Positions 25,123 to 34,483 are shown, numbered from the stretch's first letter. The stretch: 64,000 bases of DNA from Sulfolobus acidocaldarius SUSAZ (GCA_000508305.1 CP006977.1:372001-436000), one strand, 5' to 3'. Notes: generated by a model not told the origin, from the letters alone. Numbers and translations are program-made.

Positions 25123-26076
25123 TTATTGAACACTTACTAAATCATTTATCTTTTTGAATAGAACATTAGTGTTATGTTTTACAGCTACCCTCCCATAAAA
25201 TTCATTTAGCCCTTTAAATCCCTCTGAATCCCTTATTTGATAACCCAATGGTCTTAGCATCTGATTAACCCTTGTGGCAGGTATAGGAAATTTAACCAAA
25301 ACGAATGGTGCTACCGTTTTGTACATTTTAAACTGAGAAGATAAACCAGATATTAGACCACTTAGATAATCCTTGCTTCTTCTAAAGAAATTCCTAACTT
25401 CCTTTGCATGAAGATTAGAAAATACATAATAGGCTATACTATTTAGCCTCCAAGGTGGAGATTTATCTTCAAGCTCCTTAGAGCTCTTACCTATTGTAAA
25501 ACCTATCCTTAGACCTGGTATTGCTAAAGACTTGGTAAAAGACGAAATAAAAAGTAAATTATCAAACTCACTTGCTAAGTCGTAATTAGGTTCAATTAAA
25601 CTAATATCTGCAAAGGACTCGTCTAGGATAAGCTTGCCCCCATTGGATAGGAAGTCGATTATCCTTTCTCTCTCTACAAAAGATCCAGTGGGATTTACAG
25701 GATTGCTTGTAATTACACAGTTACCCTCTAAAGAGTAAATAAAAATATCGTCTAACTCCATTGCATAATAACTTCCTGCCCTTTTGTACTCAGAATAATT
25801 AGGCTCTGGTACGTTACATGGTTCCAACAACGAAATTACTTCTGATGCTCCGTTGAAAATTCCCACAAGCGAAATGTCAACGTTATACAGATCAGCAATG
25901 AACTCCTTTATATCTCTTAGTTGCAACGGCGGATAATACGAATACACTTTATTCATTAAGGCGTCTCTTATGAGTTCCTCGACGAATTCTGGTGTACCTA
26001 GAGGATTCAGATTAACACTGAAATCATCTATTTTAAGTGGTCTTCCATGAACCCATTCCACGCCACCATGTCTCAT
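25123..26076 (-). CDS. CobD-like PLP-dependent aminotransferase-fold enzyme
   Basis: A 317-residue fold-type I PLP enzyme. The CobD-like N terminus (MRHGG, then DDFSVNLNPLGTPEF) matches L-threonine-O-3-phosphate decarboxylases, and the Schiff-base lysine lies in SSFTKSLAIPGLRIGF. Asp of DESFAD binds the pyridine nitrogen, and NPVNPTG is the usual substrate loop. Likely role: aminopropanol phosphate for the cobalamin side chain. A histidinol-phosphate aminotransferase-like activity is the main alternative. No cob genes are adjacent. Four-base overlap with the upstream regulator gene. Confidence 0.75.
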   Translation of the reverse strand: MRHGGVEWVHGRPLKIDDFSVNLNPLGTPEFVEELIRDALMNKVYSYYPPLQLRDIKEFIADLYNVDISLVGIFNGASEVISLLEPCNVPEPNYSEYKRAGSYYAMELDDIFIYSLEGNCVITSNPVNPTGSFVERERIIDFLSNGGKLILDESFADISLIEPNYDLASEFDNLLFISSFTKSLAIPGLRIGFTIGKSSKELEDKSPPWRLNSIAYYVFSNLHAKEVRNFFRRSKDYLSGLISGLSSQFKMYKTVAPFVLVKFPIPATRVNQMLRPLGYQIRDSEGFKGLNEFYGRVAVKHNTNVLFKKINDLVSVQ

Positions 26077-27398: not shown

Positions 27399-28628
27399 TT
27401 AAACCTTTCTACTTACTTCGTATTTAACGATATCTAACAATTCTCTAGCTATAATTGTCTTATAGTTCTTTTCTAGCTTCCTAACGAAAGAATTTCCTAT
27501 AACTATAACCTCGTTATATTCTGAGGAAAAGCCTATGTCCTTTCTCTTCACGTTATTTGCAACTATTATATCAAATTTATGCCTTTCTTTTTTCATCTTT
27601 GCCTTCTCAATCAGCTCTTCATCACTATTTACGGTTTCAGCAGAAAATCCCACCAGTAGTGGACGATAGATTGACAATTTTGAGGAAATTTTAGGAGTCG
27701 TCTCTAATTCAACTTTAGGAACTTCTGAATGACTATCTATTTTACTTGAAGCGGCATTCTTGGGCTTAAAATCAGCTGGCGCACCGGCTAATATAACTAT
27801 ACCGTATTTCTCGTCTCTAACCAATTTTTCTACATTTTCAGCCATCTCTTGCGTAGTATCAACCCTGATTCTTTTAGTGTATGGCTTAACGCTTGAGGAT
27901 AATGGACCGTGAACTAGGATAACGTCTGCGCCCCTGAAATAGGCTTCATTAGCTATCGACACACCCATAGTACCACTACTCGAATTTGAGATAAACCTGA
28001 CTGGGTCAATGTATTCTCTAGTGGGACCAGCAGTCACCACTATTTTATATCCTTTAAGATCTTTTCCCCTGAGAAGAAAAGATGTGATATAACTAGAGAG
28101 GTATTCAATATCTGGGTAATGAGCTACATCCCTGGTAATTTCTGGATTAATTATTTCAATGCCCTGTTTGACAAGTTTTTCTATATTCTCTTTAAACTGA
28201 GGAGCCTCATACATTGTCAGGTGCATTGCAGGTACCAAAATAACAGGTTTCTTAATTCCAACAAAGTTCAGTGCAGTCAATGTTATAGAAGTGTCTGCTA
28301 TTCCGTTGGCTAATTTAGAAATTGTATTAGCTGTAGATGGTGCTATAACTAGTGCATCATATTCTTCAGCAAGCTCGACATGTTCTATTTCTCCTCCTAC
28401 GCTTACTACAGGCTCTTCCCCTGTAGCCCAATGGAACATCATCGGATTAATCAATTTAGTTGAATCCTTACTCATTATGACCCTAACATTTGCCCCCCTT
28501 CTCATCAATGCTCTGACTAAATCGAGGCTTTTGTAAACTGATACACTGGCTGTTACTCCAACCAGTATCTTTTTATTTAGTAGTTCTCTAGAAACCTCTC
28601 CTATGATTTTTTTTGATGGGTGTACCAT
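27399..28628 (-). CDS. coaBC: bifunctional phosphopantothenoylcysteine decarboxylase/phosphopantothenate-cysteine ligase
   Basis: 409 residues in the standard CoaBC order. The N-terminal flavoprotein CoaC half has VGVTASVSVYKSLDLVRAL and the PAMHLTMYEAP segment. The C-terminal CoaB half begins near 190 with VVTAGPTREYIDPVRFISN(S)SG and contains the NTP-binding AGAPADFKPK. It makes 4'-phosphopantetheine for CoA. Divergent from ard1 with a 43-base gap. Confidence 0.95.
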   Translation of the reverse strand: MVHPSKKIIGEVSRELLNKKILVGVTASVSVYKSLDLVRALMRRGANVRVIMSKDSTKLINPMMFHWATGEEPVVSVGGEIEHVELAEEYDALVIAPSTANTISKLANGIADTSITLTALNFVGIKKPVILVPAMHLTMYEAPQFKENIEKLVKQGIEIINPEITRDVAHYPDIEYLSSYITSFLLRGKDLKGYKIVVTAGPTREYIDPVRFISNSSSGTMGVSIANEAYFRGADVILVHGPLSSSVKPYTKRIRVDTTQEMAENVEKLVRDEKYGIVILAGAPADFKPKNAASSKIDSHSEVPKVELETTPKISSKLSIYRPLLVGFSAETVNSDEELIEKAKMKKERHKFDIIVANNVKRKDIGFSSEYNEVIVIGNSFVRKLEKNYKTIIARELLDIVKYEVSRKV

Positions 28629-28671
28629 ATGACCAAATATAAATTTAAGTGATCACTAAAAACCTTATACT

Positions 28672-29178
28672 ATGGAAATAACCGAGGATAGTAAGAGGAA
28701 AATCAATTATCAAATCAGGCTTGCGACATTATCGGACATAGACCAAATAATTAGGATAAATAGATCTGCACTACCTGAAAATTATCCATATTATTTTTTT
28801 GTTGAACACTTAAAGGAATATGGACAAGCATTTTATGTAGCTGACCTAGAAGGTGAGGTTGTTGGATATGTCATGCCGAGGATAGAATGGGGATTTAGTA
28901 ATCTTAAACACATTCCGTCTCTAGTAAGAAAGGGTCATATAGTGTCTATTGCTGTTCTTGAACCCTTCAGAAAGATAGGTGTCGGCACATCCCTTTTACA
29001 AAACTCTCTCAGAGCCATGAAAGATACATATAATGCTGAGGAAGTATATCTAGAAGTAAGAGTTACAAACTATCCTGCAATATCGCTGTACAAAAAATTC
29101 AATTTCAAAGAAGTTAAACTCCTTAAACACTATTATGCAGACGGAGAAGATGCGTACCTAATGGCTGCTCCTCTTTAA
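28672..29178 (+). CDS. ard1: protein N-terminal acetyltransferase Ard1 (NatA-like)
   Basis: A 168-residue GNAT enzyme close to the characterised S. solfataricus Ard1. Visible parts: substrate loop LPENYPYYFFVEHLKEYG, acetyl-CoA motif VLEPFRKIGVGTSLL (R-x-x-G-x-G/A pattern kept) and VRVTNYPAISLYKKFNF. It acetylates N-terminal Ser/Ala/Met, including that of Alba. The 3' end overlaps the convergent phosphoesterase gene by 21 bases. Confidence 0.92.
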   Translation: MEITEDSKRKINYQIRLATLSDIDQIIRINRSALPENYPYYFFVEHLKEYGQAFYVADLEGEVVGYVMPRIEWGFSNLKHIPSLVRKGHIVSIAVLEPFRKIGVGTSLLQNSLRAMKDTYNAEEVYLEVRVTNYPAISLYKKFNFKEVKLLKHYYADGEDAYLMAAPL

Positions 29179-29631
29179 AATAATCTCGTTCGTATTAGAA
29201 TCGTATATGACATAATACCCTTTTTCTGCGCTTCCAATAGATACTATTTTAGTTAAACCTATATTGTATATGTTCTGAGCTTCAGAGTGGCCATGAAATA
29301 CCATCTTTGGGCTATTGGTAAGTATTTGGTTTCTAACCATTAACGATCCGTACTCTAATCTAGGAGGAAAATGTGTAATAGTTATATTGGAAAAGTTAGT
29401 ACTAAAAGCAAGGAAGGAAGACTCTATTAATTTACCTGTATTTTTCAAATACTTCATTGTAGTTATGTTGTCCATCTCCCCTAAAATACCATAAAAATCT
29501 CTTAAAAATTGCGGACACTCTACATCACCTAAACCAACAACATAGTCCACATCCAGACTGTTTATTTTATCTATTAAGGAATTTTCACACGGAAGTCTGG
29601 TTATAAGTGCCATTATCGCCATAAAGAACAC
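29158..29631 (-). CDS. degenerate metallophosphoesterase
   Basis: 157 residues. Motifs II-V of the calcineurin-like fold can be seen: GLGDVECP, GEMDN (in place of GNHD), THFPPR and FHGHSEAQ. The N-terminal D-x-H motif, which supplies metal-1 ligands, is missing: the protein begins MFFMAIMALITRLPC. It is last in the CitG operon, and its 5' 47 bases overlap the CitG gene. Either an altered enzyme or an inactive regulator. Confidence 0.6.
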   Translation of the reverse strand: MFFMAIMALITRLPCENSLIDKINSLDVDYVVGLGDVECPQFLRDFYGILGEMDNITTMKYLKNTGKLIESSFLAFSTNFSNITITHFPPRLEYGSLMVRNQILTNSPKMVFHGHSEAQNIYNIGLTKIVSIGSAEKGYYVIYDSNTNEIILKRSSH

Positions 29632-30457
29632 CCAATCCGTGAATAGCTATACCCACTGCAACTATATCTGCCGTAGAGCCAGGATTATATCCCCTAGAGA
29701 CCAAATATTCGTCTAAAATACTCACCAATTTTTCATTACTTAAACATTGGCAAGCCAGTTTTGATACTTCCATGGCTATTCTTCCACCGTTTCTCCTAAA
29801 TATTAACCCATCTGGTAATTCACATAAAACCTTTAAAAATCCCAAAAGAATCCCTCTATCATACCCCTCCTGTTCAATGAGTTTTGCAACCCACAGAGAA
29901 TATTTATAGCCATCTAACATATTTCTAACTGCACTATCAAAGGCTGATATCTTAAGAATTTCAAATAGAGAGAGATTATCATCTTGCTCTCTATAATCAT
30001 ATCCCCTGTCTAATTTACCCAAATAGCTTAGTTGCAATATTTCCAGAGTCATCTTAAAATACCTAGATTCAATACTATCCAATGACCTAATTAGCTGTGT
30101 CGCTCTAAAAATAAGCTGACCAATGGAGTCAGTTGAAGAGGAAGAATATGCTAAGGGTAGAAGTTGCATAGCAGTACCTAATATGGAAAAATTAACGTGC
30201 AGCGTTTTACTAATTTTAGCCATCATGTACAAAAGATCATACAATGGCTTTTCCTGTGAGCTACCCCTTATACAAGCGGTTTTATAATAATTTGTTGAAA
30301 GTAATGCAGACTTTACAAGGTCTGAGAACTTGACACCTTTAATATCTCTTGTTCTTGAAGCGTTTCCAGGTTTGTAATGTAATGCTTCTAAGACAGTGGC
30401 GTTAGAAAGGATAAATGCTACTTTCTCACAGTATTCTCCTGACTCTCCCTCCAACAT
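29585..30457 (-). CDS. CitG/MdcB-like triphosphoribosyl-dephospho-CoA synthase family protein
   Basis: A 290-residue helical protein. Similarity to CitG/MdcB shows at LEALHYKPGNASRTRD (PKPG-type loop), PDGLIFRRNGG (matching D-T-N-x-x-H-R-G-G) and YNPGSTADIVAV near the C terminus. CitG joins ATP and dephospho-CoA to make the citrate lyase prosthetic-group precursor. No citrate lyase or malonate decarboxylase gene is in the window, so the product and acceptor are unknown. It overlaps the nucleotidyltransferase gene by 32 bases. Confidence 0.7.
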   Translation of the reverse strand: MLEGESGEYCEKVAFILSNATVLEALHYKPGNASRTRDIKGVKFSDLVKSALLSTNYYKTACIRGSSQEKPLYDLLYMMAKISKTLHVNFSILGTAMQLLPLAYSSSSTDSIGQLIFRATQLIRSLDSIESRYFKMTLEILQLSYLGKLDRGYDYREQDDNLSLFEILKISAFDSAVRNMLDGYKYSLWVAKLIEQEGYDRGILLGFLKVLCELPDGLIFRRNGGRIAMEVSKLACQCLSNEKLVSILDEYLVSRGYNPGSTADIVAVGIAIHGLGVLYGDNGTYNQTSV

Positions 30458-31340
30458 TTCTATCGCCCACTATTACTTGATTGGAATTTTCACATTTCAC
30501 GAGTAAGCCATCAACTTCTATTTTTCTCGAGGAGTATAATAGATAAGAATATATGCCCTCATATGAAACTAAATAGTCTACTTTTTCATCGCCTTCCACA
30601 TGATATAGACTCACTTTAGAAGGGTAAAATAATGCTTTGCAATCAGGTTCTATTTCAGCCTTAATTTTAACTCTTTTACGAGTAGGAAGACACACATCTT
30701 CACAATATCTTTGAGGTTTGTCATCTACAAATAAAATAGAATATTTTACGTTATTGTAATATTTGCCCCTAATTTTTCTAGTATATAATTTTTTAACCAA
30801 GTCTAATTCTAAGCCGTAATTCTTACTGGTTTCATAAATCCATTCCTCATCATCATTAAAACCTTCAAAACTTTCAATCACATCTAATGATTCTTTACAT
30901 CCATATATTACGATATCTAGATCAGAGAGTTCATGATAGGTGTTTGTAAGTAAACTGCCAGAGACTCCTAATCTAGATGTATGAATGTACTGCATTATTT
31001 CGAGGAGTGTAAGCTCTTGCTTACTCTGTGAGGGATGCTTTAATATTTCCCTTATTTTCTCTTCAGGCTTGAGGTGATTAGAAATTGCTGATTTTCTTAA
31101 TATAGGAAAACTAACACCATAACAACACTCATGGATAAACTCCTGTTTTACTTTTAGGACGTTATGAATTCCATAATATTTTAAAGCTCTCTCATATCCT
31201 TTCCATAATCCCTTACCAGTAAAAACGTACTTCAATATCGCGTAAATATATCCAAAGGGATTAATATTACTGTACACGTAGTATATGTTATTATCTCTGT
31301 CTAGTACTAGATCCTTGTCAAGGAAATAATCTCTTCCCAT
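30426..31340 (-). CDS. predicted nucleotidyltransferase (pol beta-like fold)
   Basis: 304 residues. The nucleotidyltransferase motif GVSGSLLTNTYHELSDLDIVIYG is at about 121-143, with GS followed by D-L-D metal ligands; a later Asp (LELDLVKKLY) may be the third. The N-terminal part and a long C-terminal domain are unfamiliar, close to the archaeal COG1665 type. In the CitG context it might play the part CitX or MdcG plays in bacteria, which is inference. Overlaps the DUF1464 gene by 34 bases. Confidence 0.65.
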   Translation of the reverse strand: MGRDYFLDKDLVLDRDNNIYYVYSNINPFGYIYAILKYVFTGKGLWKGYERALKYYGIHNVLKVKQEFIHECCYGVSFPILRKSAISNHLKPEEKIREILKHPSQSKQELTLLEIMQYIHTSRLGVSGSLLTNTYHELSDLDIVIYGCKESLDVIESFEGFNDDEEWIYETSKNYGLELDLVKKLYTRKIRGKYYNNVKYSILFVDDKPQRYCEDVCLPTRKRVKIKAEIEPDCKALFYPSKVSLYHVEGDEKVDYLVSYEGIYSYLLYSSRKIEVDGLLVKCENSNQVIVGDRNVGGRVRRIL

Positions 31341-32209
31341 CCCTTTAGCCTCACATGTGATAATGGAGTACCTGCACTTTTAAGGAAATCTATATATTTC
31401 CTGTAGATTCCACCATAGAGAGAATTTGCTATGTAAGCTGAACCAATTGCTGATTCTTTAAAAGAAAAAGAAAATTTCTTACCAAAATCTACATCCCACT
31501 TTCTCTTGCCAGAAACTATTATTGGGAGATTGTATTTAGATGAATACCATTCAGAAATTATCCTGATTATTTCTACTCCTCTTTCCCAGTTACCTCCTGA
31601 ATAAATTGTCTCCTTTGAAATTTTAGCGTACTTGCATAATAAGTATGCGATTTCTCCGTCTAAAAAACCAGCAGAGGAGAAACCAGGTAGTATAGTCCCC
31701 CCAAACCCATCTGTAATCTCGCCATTTCGAACTACCAGTATAGAGGAGAAATTAGAACCAATTTCTACTAGCACAAAATTATCGTACATTGTCCTGTAAA
31801 AGAACGCTGAGGCTACCTTATCTGCTGTTCCCATATCTATTACGTTTATCTTTCTATATACAGGTACTGAGTCTAACTCTATCACTCCTGGGATTGTAAA
31901 CCCATTGAAAATATATGCTTTTGAGGATCTTATGAAGTTCCTTAAGTGTCCCTCTTTCTCAGGATCAGCAAGTGTTAATAGAAAAATTTCCTTATCAGTG
32001 AGATCAGTAATTTTCTTAAACGGTAAGCCATGACCCGATGGCATTGCAACAGCTACAGGTCTTTCATCTAACAAATATCTAAGCAGAGAATAAGAAGCAT
32101 GCTTCACTAAGTCTGTAGGTATCTCAATTTTCCTGGAAATATTTCCGGTTTCGGTTACAGATATGGCTTCATAAGTCCTACTCCCGGGGTCAATTCCAGT
32201 AAAAATCAT
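31307..32209 (-). CDS. DUF1464 ASKHA-fold protein (kinase-like)
   Basis: A 300-residue protein of the acetate kinase/Hsp70/actin fold. Phosphate 1 loop FTGIDPGSRTYEAISV, a second Gly/Asp motif INVIDMGTADKVASAFF (about 119-135), VLVEIGSNFSSILVV and the adenosine motif IIVSGKR are seen. DUF1464 proteins are archaeal and have been guessed to be acyl kinases; no function is established. Four-base overlap with the gene upstream. Confidence 0.75.
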   Translation of the reverse strand: MIFTGIDPGSRTYEAISVTETGNISRKIEIPTDLVKHASYSLLRYLLDERPVAVAMPSGHGLPFKKITDLTDKEIFLLTLADPEKEGHLRNFIRSSKAYIFNGFTIPGVIELDSVPVYRKINVIDMGTADKVASAFFYRTMYDNFVLVEIGSNFSSILVVRNGEITDGFGGTILPGFSSAGFLDGEIAYLLCKYAKISKETIYSGGNWERGVEIIRIISEWYSSKYNLPIIVSGKRKWDVDFGKKFSFSFKESAIGSAYIANSLYGGIYRKYIDFLKSAGTPLSHVRLKGWEEIISLTRI

Positions 32210-32730
32210 GATACTTCTTGTATTTTTACCACCAATAAGTCCTTAATAATCCTTAGTTTCAAATTAAGTTCCGATGACACAATTTTAAATACCTGTTCAA
32301 AGTATTTTGCTTGTTCTTCGTTGTTAAACATCACATTAACCAGCTCAGGGTCTTTACCATGAAGATTTAGGAAAACCACCTTACCATCTAACAGTTTCAC
32401 TATGATATTAAGTATAAAGATAAATTCTGGTCTCTTAGAATCTACAATTCCCTCCGATTTAAGGTAATTGGAAATACTAATTCCTATTAACTTAGGATCA
32501 TATTTCTGGAACTCTATTTTTATAAAATCCCTGATGATAACATAAAATTTAATCTCTTCCATGAAGAAATTCATATTATCTATTCCTATTTTTTCGTAAA
32601 CTTTCTCTAATAGATCAATTGAATAGTTAGTAAGTTCATAAATAGATTTACCTGTAACTGTTGATAAATTTCTAATAAATTGATACTTCTCGTCAGACAT
32701 AAAGCAAGGTCGTCTACCCATTATATACAT
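32206..32730 (-). CDS. hypothetical protein (174 aa), CitG operon
   Basis: Unrecognised soluble protein. N-terminal region GRRPCFMSDEKYQFIRNLSTVTGKSIYELTNYSIDLLEKVY resembles a small basic RHH-like or helical domain. The rest is mixed alpha/beta with no catalytic motif. The start is Met1 or Met4. It overlaps the DUF1464 gene by four bases, tying it to that operon. Confidence 0.55.
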   Translation of the reverse strand: MYIMGRRPCFMSDEKYQFIRNLSTVTGKSIYELTNYSIDLLEKVYEKIGIDNMNFFMEEIKFYVIIRDFIKIEFQKYDPKLIGISISNYLKSEGIVDSKRPEFIFILNIIVKLLDGKVVFLNLHGKDPELVNVMFNNEEQAKYFEQVFKIVSSELNLKLRIIKDLLVVKIQEVS

Positions 32731-32770
32731 TACGGTTAATTCAATTATAAAAGATTTATCAATATAGAAC

Positions 32771-33427
32771 TTATATTCTTTTTACTACTATCTTAATCAA
32801 TTGTTCACTAGCAGATTTACCAATTATCTCAAAATTTAATTGATAGAAAAAGCTTTCTAAAGCATCTAACAATATATCATTTAAGTCCTTCGTCGCGCCC
32901 TGAATACTTATAGCCAAATCAAAGTTTGAACCATTTTTTGACACAATAACTATGGGATTGAGCCTAGATATATAAGGACCAAATTTTATAATAGTTTCTA
33001 AATCCTTCTCAGTCTCTATAACGTAATTCATGTTCTTTAGTATCCTTGAGAAGTTAAGAATTGATATTTTAATTGATTGATGTATATAATCTCTCAACTG
33101 TTGATTACTCTTCAATAACTCATTTACAGAAGTCAAAGGTATTGGAATATTACCACCCGGTGCATTTTCAGACGTGTAAGAAAAGTAAACTAAGGATATG
33201 AAATTAAACACTTCCGCGTCCTTGGATATTTTTAGAATGTCTACTACGTTCCATAAAATTTCCTCTAGTCCTTCTTTCCACCTATCCTCTGCCCTGAAAT
33301 TTCCATCCAAAGAAGTTGATCTAATAATCATCAATCTCAATAACTCAGATCTTAAAGTATCTATCAGTTCCTCTGATAACGGAACAACTTTCTTACTCTT
33401 TTTTCTCTCTTCCGCTCTCTTAACCAC
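32771..33427 (-). CDS. hypothetical protein (218 aa), first gene of CitG operon
   Basis: Unrecognised. Very basic N terminus (VKRAEERKKSKKVV), a helical middle section and a beta-rich C-terminal domain (RLNPIVIVSKNGSNFDLAISIQG). It resembles its downstream neighbour in general layout and could be a distant paralog, though I cannot align them with confidence. 40-base gap to the next gene. Confidence 0.55.
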   Translation of the reverse strand: MVKRAEERKKSKKVVPLSEELIDTLRSELLRLMIIRSTSLDGNFRAEDRWKEGLEEILWNVVDILKISKDAEVFNFISLVYFSYTSENAPGGNIPIPLTSVNELLKSNQQLRDYIHQSIKISILNFSRILKNMNYVIETEKDLETIIKFGPYISRLNPIVIVSKNGSNFDLAISIQGATKDLNDILLDALESFFYQLNFEIIGKSASEQLIKIVVKRI

Positions 33428-33721: not shown

Positions 33722-34096
33722 CTATAATGTTATAATATTTATTCCAGTAATTTTCTTTATATCTTCAAAGTCTTTATCATAAGTTATCAAAACCTCATTA
33801 TTAGACTTGACAATAGAAGCTATCAGAACATCAATATCTTCTTTTATCTTGCCCCGTGAAGCGAGTTCTCGATATATATCTGATGCAATCAAAGCTTCAC
33901 TAGCTGTAAAAGGATATATAACCATTTTTTCAATATGCTCTCTAACCTTATATCCAAACTTAGATCTTAGAATCTCATAGACGTTAAACACCGTTGTAGC
34001 TATCGTATCTTGAAACTCCTCAACTACTTTAAATGTGTTTTCGTCTCCTCTCATTACTCTTATTATAACATTCGAGTCAAGTATCACCATTTTCAA
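33722..34096 (-). CDS. VapC-type PIN-domain toxin ribonuclease
   Basis: A 124-residue PIN domain with all four acidic positions visible: Asp in VILDSNVII (residue 7), Glu in VFNVYEILRSK (about 42), Asp in EDIDVLIAS (about 94) and Asp in TYDKDFEDI (about 110). VapC toxins cleave tRNA or rRNA. It overlaps the antitoxin gene by 20 bases, the usual order. Confidence 0.85.
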   Translation of the reverse strand: MKMVILDSNVIIRVMRGDENTFKVVEEFQDTIATTVFNVYEILRSKFGYKVREHIEKMVIYPFTASEALIASDIYRELASRGKIKEDIDVLIASIVKSNNEVLITYDKDFEDIKKITGINIITL

Positions 34097-34325
34097 TAGC
34101 CCTAAACCTAAAACTCTTTCTGATATTCAATGTCTCATTAGCCATTTCCGTAGCCTCCTCCTCATTAAGAATTCCAAACATTTGGAGTAAAACATCTTTA
34201 TTCCCCTTTTTATTCTTGTTATAGAACTCAATTAGCTCATTTATAGTTTCACTGAAAGACCTACCCTTCTTTAATTTTGACAATTTATCATAAACATCAT
34301 CTGATATTGTAATGACTTTAGGCAT
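34077..34325 (-). CDS. VapB-type antitoxin
   Basis: 82 residues from ATG 34325 (MPKVITISDDVYDKLSKLKKGRSFSETINELIEFY), the DUF217-type archaeal VapB sequence, with a C-terminal toxin-binding tail rich in Glu and Asn. An ATG at 34349 is in frame, but a TATA-like TTAATATA about 27 bases before 34325 argues for leaderless use of the internal ATG. Confidence 0.8.
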   Translation of the reverse strand: MPKVITISDDVYDKLSKLKKGRSFSETINELIEFYNKNKKGNKDVLLQMFGILNEEEATEMANETLNIRKSFRFRAIENGDT

Positions 34326-34483
34326 AAATATATTTATACATGCATACATATATTAACTTTCGCCTAAAGTAAACTACGATCACTCTACTGTGTAGTAACA
34401 AAATTCTCTATTAGAGAGGGAGGATTAATAGCAATACAATATTTATCAGTGTATTTATGAGCAAAGTTTAGAGCTTATTATCA
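34326..34483. other. intergenic, no gene seen
   Basis: AT-rich sequence upstream of the vapBC unit. It holds the likely vapB promoter (minus strand, near 34345-34356) and otherwise no recognisable feature before the IS-end hairpin. Confidence 0.5.

Follow-up and report, generated by a model that had tools for sequence, protein, structure and literature searches.

Methanopterin carries one-carbon units in methanogenesis and in a large part of the C1 metabolism of archaea and methylotrophs, and beta-RFAP synthase (TIGR00144) is the first committed enzyme of its biosynthesis. As a chemical compound, the modified folate of Sulfolobus has been known for a long time. Sulfolobus uses it in the form of sulfopterin (PMC3697235), and the RFAP synthase homologues of Sulfolobus group with those of methanogens (PMC6787355). 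A review of 2011 counted at least nine steps in the non-pterin part of methanopterin and gave an enzyme for the first of them alone (PMC3087415). In the open-access literature we found no gene set for the side chain of the Sulfolobus modified folate, and nothing on DUF1464, on archaeal CitG proteins or on the assignment of genes to steps, although an earlier assignment elsewhere is possible.

Here we describe a six-gene operon of Sulfolobus acidocaldarius SUSAZ, located in a 64,000-nucleotide stretch of DNA (the window). We put at about 0.75 the probability that this operon carries the side-chain (non-pterin) steps of the modified folate of Sulfolobales, sulfopterin, a C1 carrier of the tetrahydromethanopterin type. 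Together with its relatives, it offers a short list of candidates for the missing side-chain enzymes, in a genetically tractable organism.

Results

Six genes on the minus strand occupy positions 29158-33427 of the window, and all of the reading frames proposed there in an earlier note on this DNA were recovered. The first gene (33427-32771) encodes an unannotated protein of 218 aa and is followed, after a gap of 40 bases, by the gene for a 174-aa protein (32730-32206) with an N-terminus that looks ribbon-helix-helix-like by eye. Neither protein matches a family in Pfam or NCBIfam, in agreement with the earlier description of two unknown proteins in front. The remaining four junctions are overlaps, of 4, 34, 32 and 47 bases. 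They lead through the genes for a DUF1464 protein, which is ASKHA kinase-like (300 aa; 32209-31307; PF07318, E=3.4e-119, 398 bits), a pol-beta-type nucleotidyltransferase, NTase, of type A (304 aa; 31340-30426; PF01909, E=9e-8) and a CitG-family protein (290 aa; 30457-29585; PF01874, E=4.9e-40). The profile search thus upheld the identities given earlier to these three proteins. The operon ends with a GTG-started gene (29631-29158) for a 157-aa calcineurin-like phosphoesterase, which had rightly been called degenerate: its PF12850/PF14582 matches (Metallophos_2/3, E ~4e-5) lie under the cut-offs, and part of the motifs is gone. As had also been noted, the ORFs surrounding the operon include no gene for citrate lyase or malonate decarboxylase.

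Profile search of 41 related genomes found CitG and the NTase in 38 each and DUF1464 in 36; of 38 relatives with genomes of good quality, 37 have a single CitG copy. When the neighbourhoods of Sulfolobaceae were compared as stretches of ~20 kb, the order DUF1464-NTase-CitG-phosphoesterase was found to recur across them with the genes overlapping. Since these core four recur in the same order and with the overlaps in nearly all Sulfolobaceae stretches, the reading frames of the operon are not due to chance. The linkage of the core is kept throughout the family; the earlier note had let its reading depend on the 290-aa protein being CitG-like and on its neighbours being conserved together in relatives, and both are what we observed. 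A GNAT gene and CoaBC usually adjoin the core, and the operon itself contains no canonical gene of the methanopterin pathway in Sulfolobaceae. A link to cobalamin through a CobD-like aminotransferase gene (25123-26076) was considered and rejected, as this gene adjoins the operon in the same genus only.

The outer genes behave differently. As far as could be seen from the family alignment and distribution, the 174-aa protein is confined to Sulfolobaceae, where it is found in most stretches, sometimes divergent from the operon; the 218-aa protein was seen in part of the family only, in fewer stretches. In some genera ribosomal genes lie upstream of the core in place of the front genes. This patchy distribution, and the replacement by other genes, mark the two front genes as accessory; they are family-restricted and dispensable. 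A profile comparison of the 174-aa with the 218-aa protein found no relation between them; the former may be a regulator, judging from the appearance of its first residues. The 157-aa phosphoesterase-like gene closes the operon in most Sulfolobaceae. Its product keeps GD, H and HGH motifs, but the N-terminal DxH and the GNH are missing, which leaves it without the full set of calcineurin-like metal ligands (DxH, GDxxD, GNH, H, GHxH). Because the metal site is partly lost, a role as a phosphatase is doubtful. A methanopterin-type pathway does not in general include the front genes or the phosphoesterase-like gene.

The CitG-family protein matches PF01874 over residues 17-273 with 138 bits (cut-off 27), and it retains the residues typical of the family (E..KPGN and NPG.TAD) as E24, K29, PGN and NPGSTAD. 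On the CitG tree the window copy clusters with all other copies of Sulfolobales and with those of Vulcanisaeta, whereas a copy linked to malonate decarboxylase (beside MdcE, locus L217) forms with its kin a long separate branch elsewhere. Searching the PDB by sequence with this protein gave a single match, 3h9p, a putative CitG-type structure. For most archaeal CitG proteins, database names such as 'triphosphoribosyl-dephospho-CoA synthase' probably mislead, as the operon and its relatives suggest.

Among 66 homologues of the NTase, G128, S129 and D140 are invariant and D142 is present in 65; with the GS and DxD motifs kept nearly always, these NTases are probably active enzymes. Profile scores separate two main kinds. 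The window copy is of type A, and so are the NTases that adjoin CitG in Vulcanisaeta and Ignisphaera, although in a quick tree, in which many forks were left open, type-A rows fall on both sides of the midpoint root. The second NTase of the window genome (G000:186377-187114) is of type B. Two or more paralogues per genome are usual, so that one simple step does not account for both. Pfam and NCBIfam scans of the window NTase gave no match to the CitX or MdcG families, only to generic nucleotidyltransferase models. The DUF1464 protein, which is placed in the ASKHA kinase superfamily, keeps the DPG and SGG-type glycine motifs that it shares with bacterial homologues; there was no match to it in any of the methanogen controls. 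A PDB sequence search with the NTase and with DUF1464 returned nothing significant, and their AlphaFold models, built without a deep alignment, have mean pLDDT values of 50 and 46, respectively, too low for the models to be of use.

We then compared gene contents across 111 genomes of Thermoproteota (completeness at least 85%; RFAP synthase counted at E up to 1e-10). CitG was present in 48 genomes, RFAP synthase in 43, the NTase in 54 and DUF1464 in 33; 57 genomes had none of the four. Every genome with CitG had the NTase (48/48), as did every genome with RFAP synthase (43/43), and RFAP synthase was present in all 33 genomes with DUF1464. This constant company of RFAP synthase suggests that DUF1464 is probably a kinase or ligase of the side chain. 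Fisher tests of co-occurrence gave p values of 1e-12 to 1e-25 in this panel of genomes that are related to each other; for that reason more weight belongs to the neighbourhoods, which are independent across families. In 16 genomes of 7 families CitG and the NTase are neighbours whose profile matches lie 16-149 bases from each other, and RFAP synthase adjoins DUF1464 in 11 genomes of 6 families, while the chance of a neighbourhood within 500 bases is ~0.003 per genome. There were exceptions in the panel: eight genomes with CitG and the NTase lacked RFAP synthase at the threshold used, and three had RFAP synthase without CitG. The NTase was also found without a detected CitG in Methanobrevibacter, Ferroglobus and a Methanomethylicota MAG, and Haloferax volcanii, despite being held to use folate (PMC8305020), matches the profiles of CitG, RFAP synthase and DUF447.

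The same distribution bears on a role in CoA metabolism, in which the CitG-like protein would act on dephospho-CoA and the operon would make a CoA-derived cofactor or tune CoA metabolism. The conserved CoaBC and GNAT neighbours in most Sulfolobaceae stretches speak for such a role, and both genes also lie near CitG in another locus (L031), where the gene after CoaBC is presumably a GHMP pantoate-kinase-like one. CoA is universal, yet CitG is absent from 63 of the 111 Thermoproteota and follows the genes of methanopterin synthesis instead; moreover, CoaBC is not beside CitG in most of the other lineages that we read. We consider this explanation improbable.

The window genome encodes an RFAP synthase (G000:C1:1222314-1223141; 227 bits combined, against 113.5), a DHPS-like protein of TIGR00284 (E=2e-145) and a DUF447 protein (E=2e-28). 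Among the 41 genomes, RFAP synthase directly adjoins DUF1464 in several families outside Sulfolobaceae. The fullest arrangement, in another family of the same order (L071), holds in one run genes for Fae, the NTase, DUF447, DUF1464, MptD, a dihydromethanopterin-reductase-like (DmrX-like) flavoprotein, the DHPS-like protein, RFAP synthase, MptE and MptA, all assigned by Pfam or NCBIfam. A scan for Fae yielded 80 named loci. In Vulcanisaeta sp. JCM 14467 the order is Fae-MfnF-MfnE-MfnB-ATP-grasp-CitG-NTase-MptN (L117; MfnE- and MptN-like), and here the CitG-NTase overlap is 14 bases long, compared with 32 in the window; nearby on the same contig (L257) the other pathway genes are accompanied by DUF447, DUF1464 and a second NTase. 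Elsewhere, an NTase-NTase-CitG-DUF447 run faces MptA-MptE (L266), an NTase gene directly precedes that of RFAP synthase with DUF447 next to it (L262), and an NTase gene stands between a RimK/MptN-like gene and MfnB and MfnF (L098). The NTase adjoins CitG in Ignisphaera (L240), and in Methanosarcina CitG is near the gene for dihydromethanopterin reductase.

Two of these loci, L117 and L098, place the NTase among mfnB, mfnE-like and mfnF genes, as would be expected if the genes served the synthesis of methanofuran rather than of the pterin. Five others (L071, L266, L262, L076 and L079), however, connect the NTase, CitG, DUF447 and DUF1464, in varied combinations, to RFAP synthase, MptA or MptE with no Mfn genes in the stretch, and we know of no step in the furan pathway that needs a phosphoribosyl transfer. 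A methanofuran role is therefore a poor candidate, with little probability left to it. CitG, the NTase and DUF1464 occur together with beta-RFAP synthase and, in other lineages, sit in methanopterin or methanofuran clusters; they therefore very probably belong to the biosynthesis of a methanopterin-type modified folate. The idea of a cofactor pathway put forward in the earlier note is thus supported by co-occurrence and neighbourhoods alike. An undescribed pathway, which the note suggested as a possibility, finds no support, since the genes are tied to the known but incompletely solved pathway of methanopterin-type folates.

Bacterial gene clusters of C1 metabolism have the order RFAP synthase-mtdB-mch-RimK-CitG-fae. 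On Azospirillum and Azoarcus plasmids and in Methylobacterium, the CitG-family gene is flanked by a RimK-type gene and fae, and by gene order it is the Orf7 of mch-orf5-orf7-fae. Orf5 of methylotrophs had also been considered as the CitG protein, and was rejected, being the ATP-grasp protein MyfB. All 12 bacterial genomes reached through fae contain CitG and none contains the NTase; of 14 archaeal genomes, 10 contain CitG and 12 the NTase. Methylobacterium makes dephospho-H4MPT, without the phosphate and the hydroxyglutarate (PMC8141765). CitG without the NTase in bacteria is what one would expect if CitG adds the common ribose and the NTase makes a phosphodiester found in archaea only; the absence of the NTase is confounded with the boundary between the domains and is not decisive.

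Discussion

The operon is real and conserved, and it lies within a known pathway that has unassigned steps; it is not an unknown system of protein modification. Its assignment to the pathway is strong, and the individual steps are those that we infer as follows. In the cofactor the ribose is alpha-linked to ribitol, and CitG enzymes form alpha linkages. The role we favour for the CitG protein is the attachment of an alpha-(tri)phosphoribosyl unit: the enzyme would transfer ribose-phosphate, with ATP as the source of triphosphoribose or with PRPP, to the ribitol hydroxyl of a pterin-aryl-ribitol, in the alpha configuration. The NTase would then join a small hydroxy acid to the 5'-phosphate in a phosphodiester bond, with release of PPi; this partner would be 2-hydroxyglutarate in true methanopterin and another group in Sulfolobus. 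CitX and MdcG do the equivalent chemistry on a serine of a carrier protein, and by analogy with them the formation of a phosphodiester is a possible activity of the NTase, even though it falls outside those families. DUF1464 would phosphorylate or activate an intermediate of the side chain, a kinase or ligase role that is doubtful for any one named step. The phosphoesterase-like protein may remove a phosphate or only assist.

A more tentative proposal is that the two late enzymes still missing for methanopterin-type cofactors are CitG and the NTase, the first building an alpha-triphosphoribosyl (or phosphoribosyl) arm on the ribitol of the pterin and the second discharging it onto the hydroxy acid to give the phosphodiester. 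If this were true, the pair would amount to a version of the citrate-lyase prosthetic-group system that acts on a small molecule and is widespread in archaea, and the second NTase paralogue and DUF1464 would cover further steps. The acceptor that seemed to be missing from the locus is probably the pterin and not a protein. The earlier version, by contrast, in which a CitG/CitX-like system loads a nucleotide-derived prosthetic group onto a carrier protein still to be found, can be given very little credence, for although CitG and a pol-beta-type NTase, with their family motifs retained, are the enzyme pair of that chemistry, the neighbourhoods hold pterin and methanofuran genes with no conserved gene for a carrier protein, and the NTase has no CitX or MdcG family match.

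Of the described systems, the CitG/CitX and MdcB/MdcG pairs of citrate lyase and malonate decarboxylase resemble the operon in the CitG family match, the pol-beta-type NTase partner and, possibly, the same two-step chemistry. They differ from it in that the window has no carrier protein or lyase near the operon, the NTase is outside the CitX/MdcG families and the CitG tree separates the window copy from the MdcE-linked one. MfnF (COG1548) of methanofuran synthesis is, like DUF1464, an ASKHA-like protein within clusters for C1 cofactors, but DUF1464 is a separate family (PF07318), and Vulcanisaeta has both on one contig (L117, L257). The 'archaeal-like' C1 cluster of Methylobacterium and Azospirillum shares the CitG-family Orf7 beside fae, and differs in lacking the NTase and in a cofactor without phosphate and hydroxyglutarate (PMC8141765). 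The methanogen pathway to methanopterin, H4MPT (MptA, MptB, MptD, MptE, the DHPS-like MJ0107, RFAP synthase and MptN), lacks DUF1464 in the controls, and the Sulfolobus cofactor has a side chain of its own; with this pathway the window genome shares RFAP synthase, TIGR00284 and DUF447, and it is in clusters of this kind that the gene families of the operon lie in its relatives.

Neighbours of the operon and of the nucleotidyltransferases

In most Sulfolobaceae stretches the operon is adjoined by genes for CoaBC and a GNAT acetyltransferase (window 27399-29178), a conserved arrangement; in another stretch that we read (L031), CoaBC and GNAT genes also lie near CitG, and we read the gene that follows CoaBC there as GHMP pantoate-kinase-like. 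Immediately upstream of the operon we observed a VapBC-like toxin-antitoxin pair (33722-34349, minus strand), recognized from the translations as a PIN-domain protein and a small antitoxin.

The second nucleotidyltransferase gene of the window's genome, encoding type B, is overlapped by 4 bases by a MoaB-like molybdenum cofactor gene (L260:8372-9702, the stretch around it), and the nucleotidyltransferase gene of stretch L261 is likewise close to a MoaB-like gene. In three families (represented by L095, L096 and L101) both nucleotidyltransferase paralogues are encoded head to tail with overlapping ends, suggesting that they work together. One type B gene is split between frames (L071:6403-7402) and one DUF1464 gene, in genome G008, contains an internal TAA (C1:788212-788991); these interruptions may reflect sequencing errors or decay.

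CitG and DUF1464 in other lineages

DUF1464 genes also adjoin fae in bacteria, namely Anaerolineales and the planctomycete Tautonia (L149:8224-9321, L157:8375-9457 and L129:11491-12522), and the family is thus a member of bacterial C1 clusters too. In Methanosarcina (L245:7962-11607) the CitG gene overlaps one encoding a methanogenesis marker 9 protein, and a gene for dihydromethanopterin reductase comes after CitG. Haloferax volcanii, one of the control genomes, is held to use folate (PMC8305020); its genome carries CitG and DUF447 genes together with a homologue of RFAP synthase, suggesting that haloarchaea have retained a pterin pathway or altered it.
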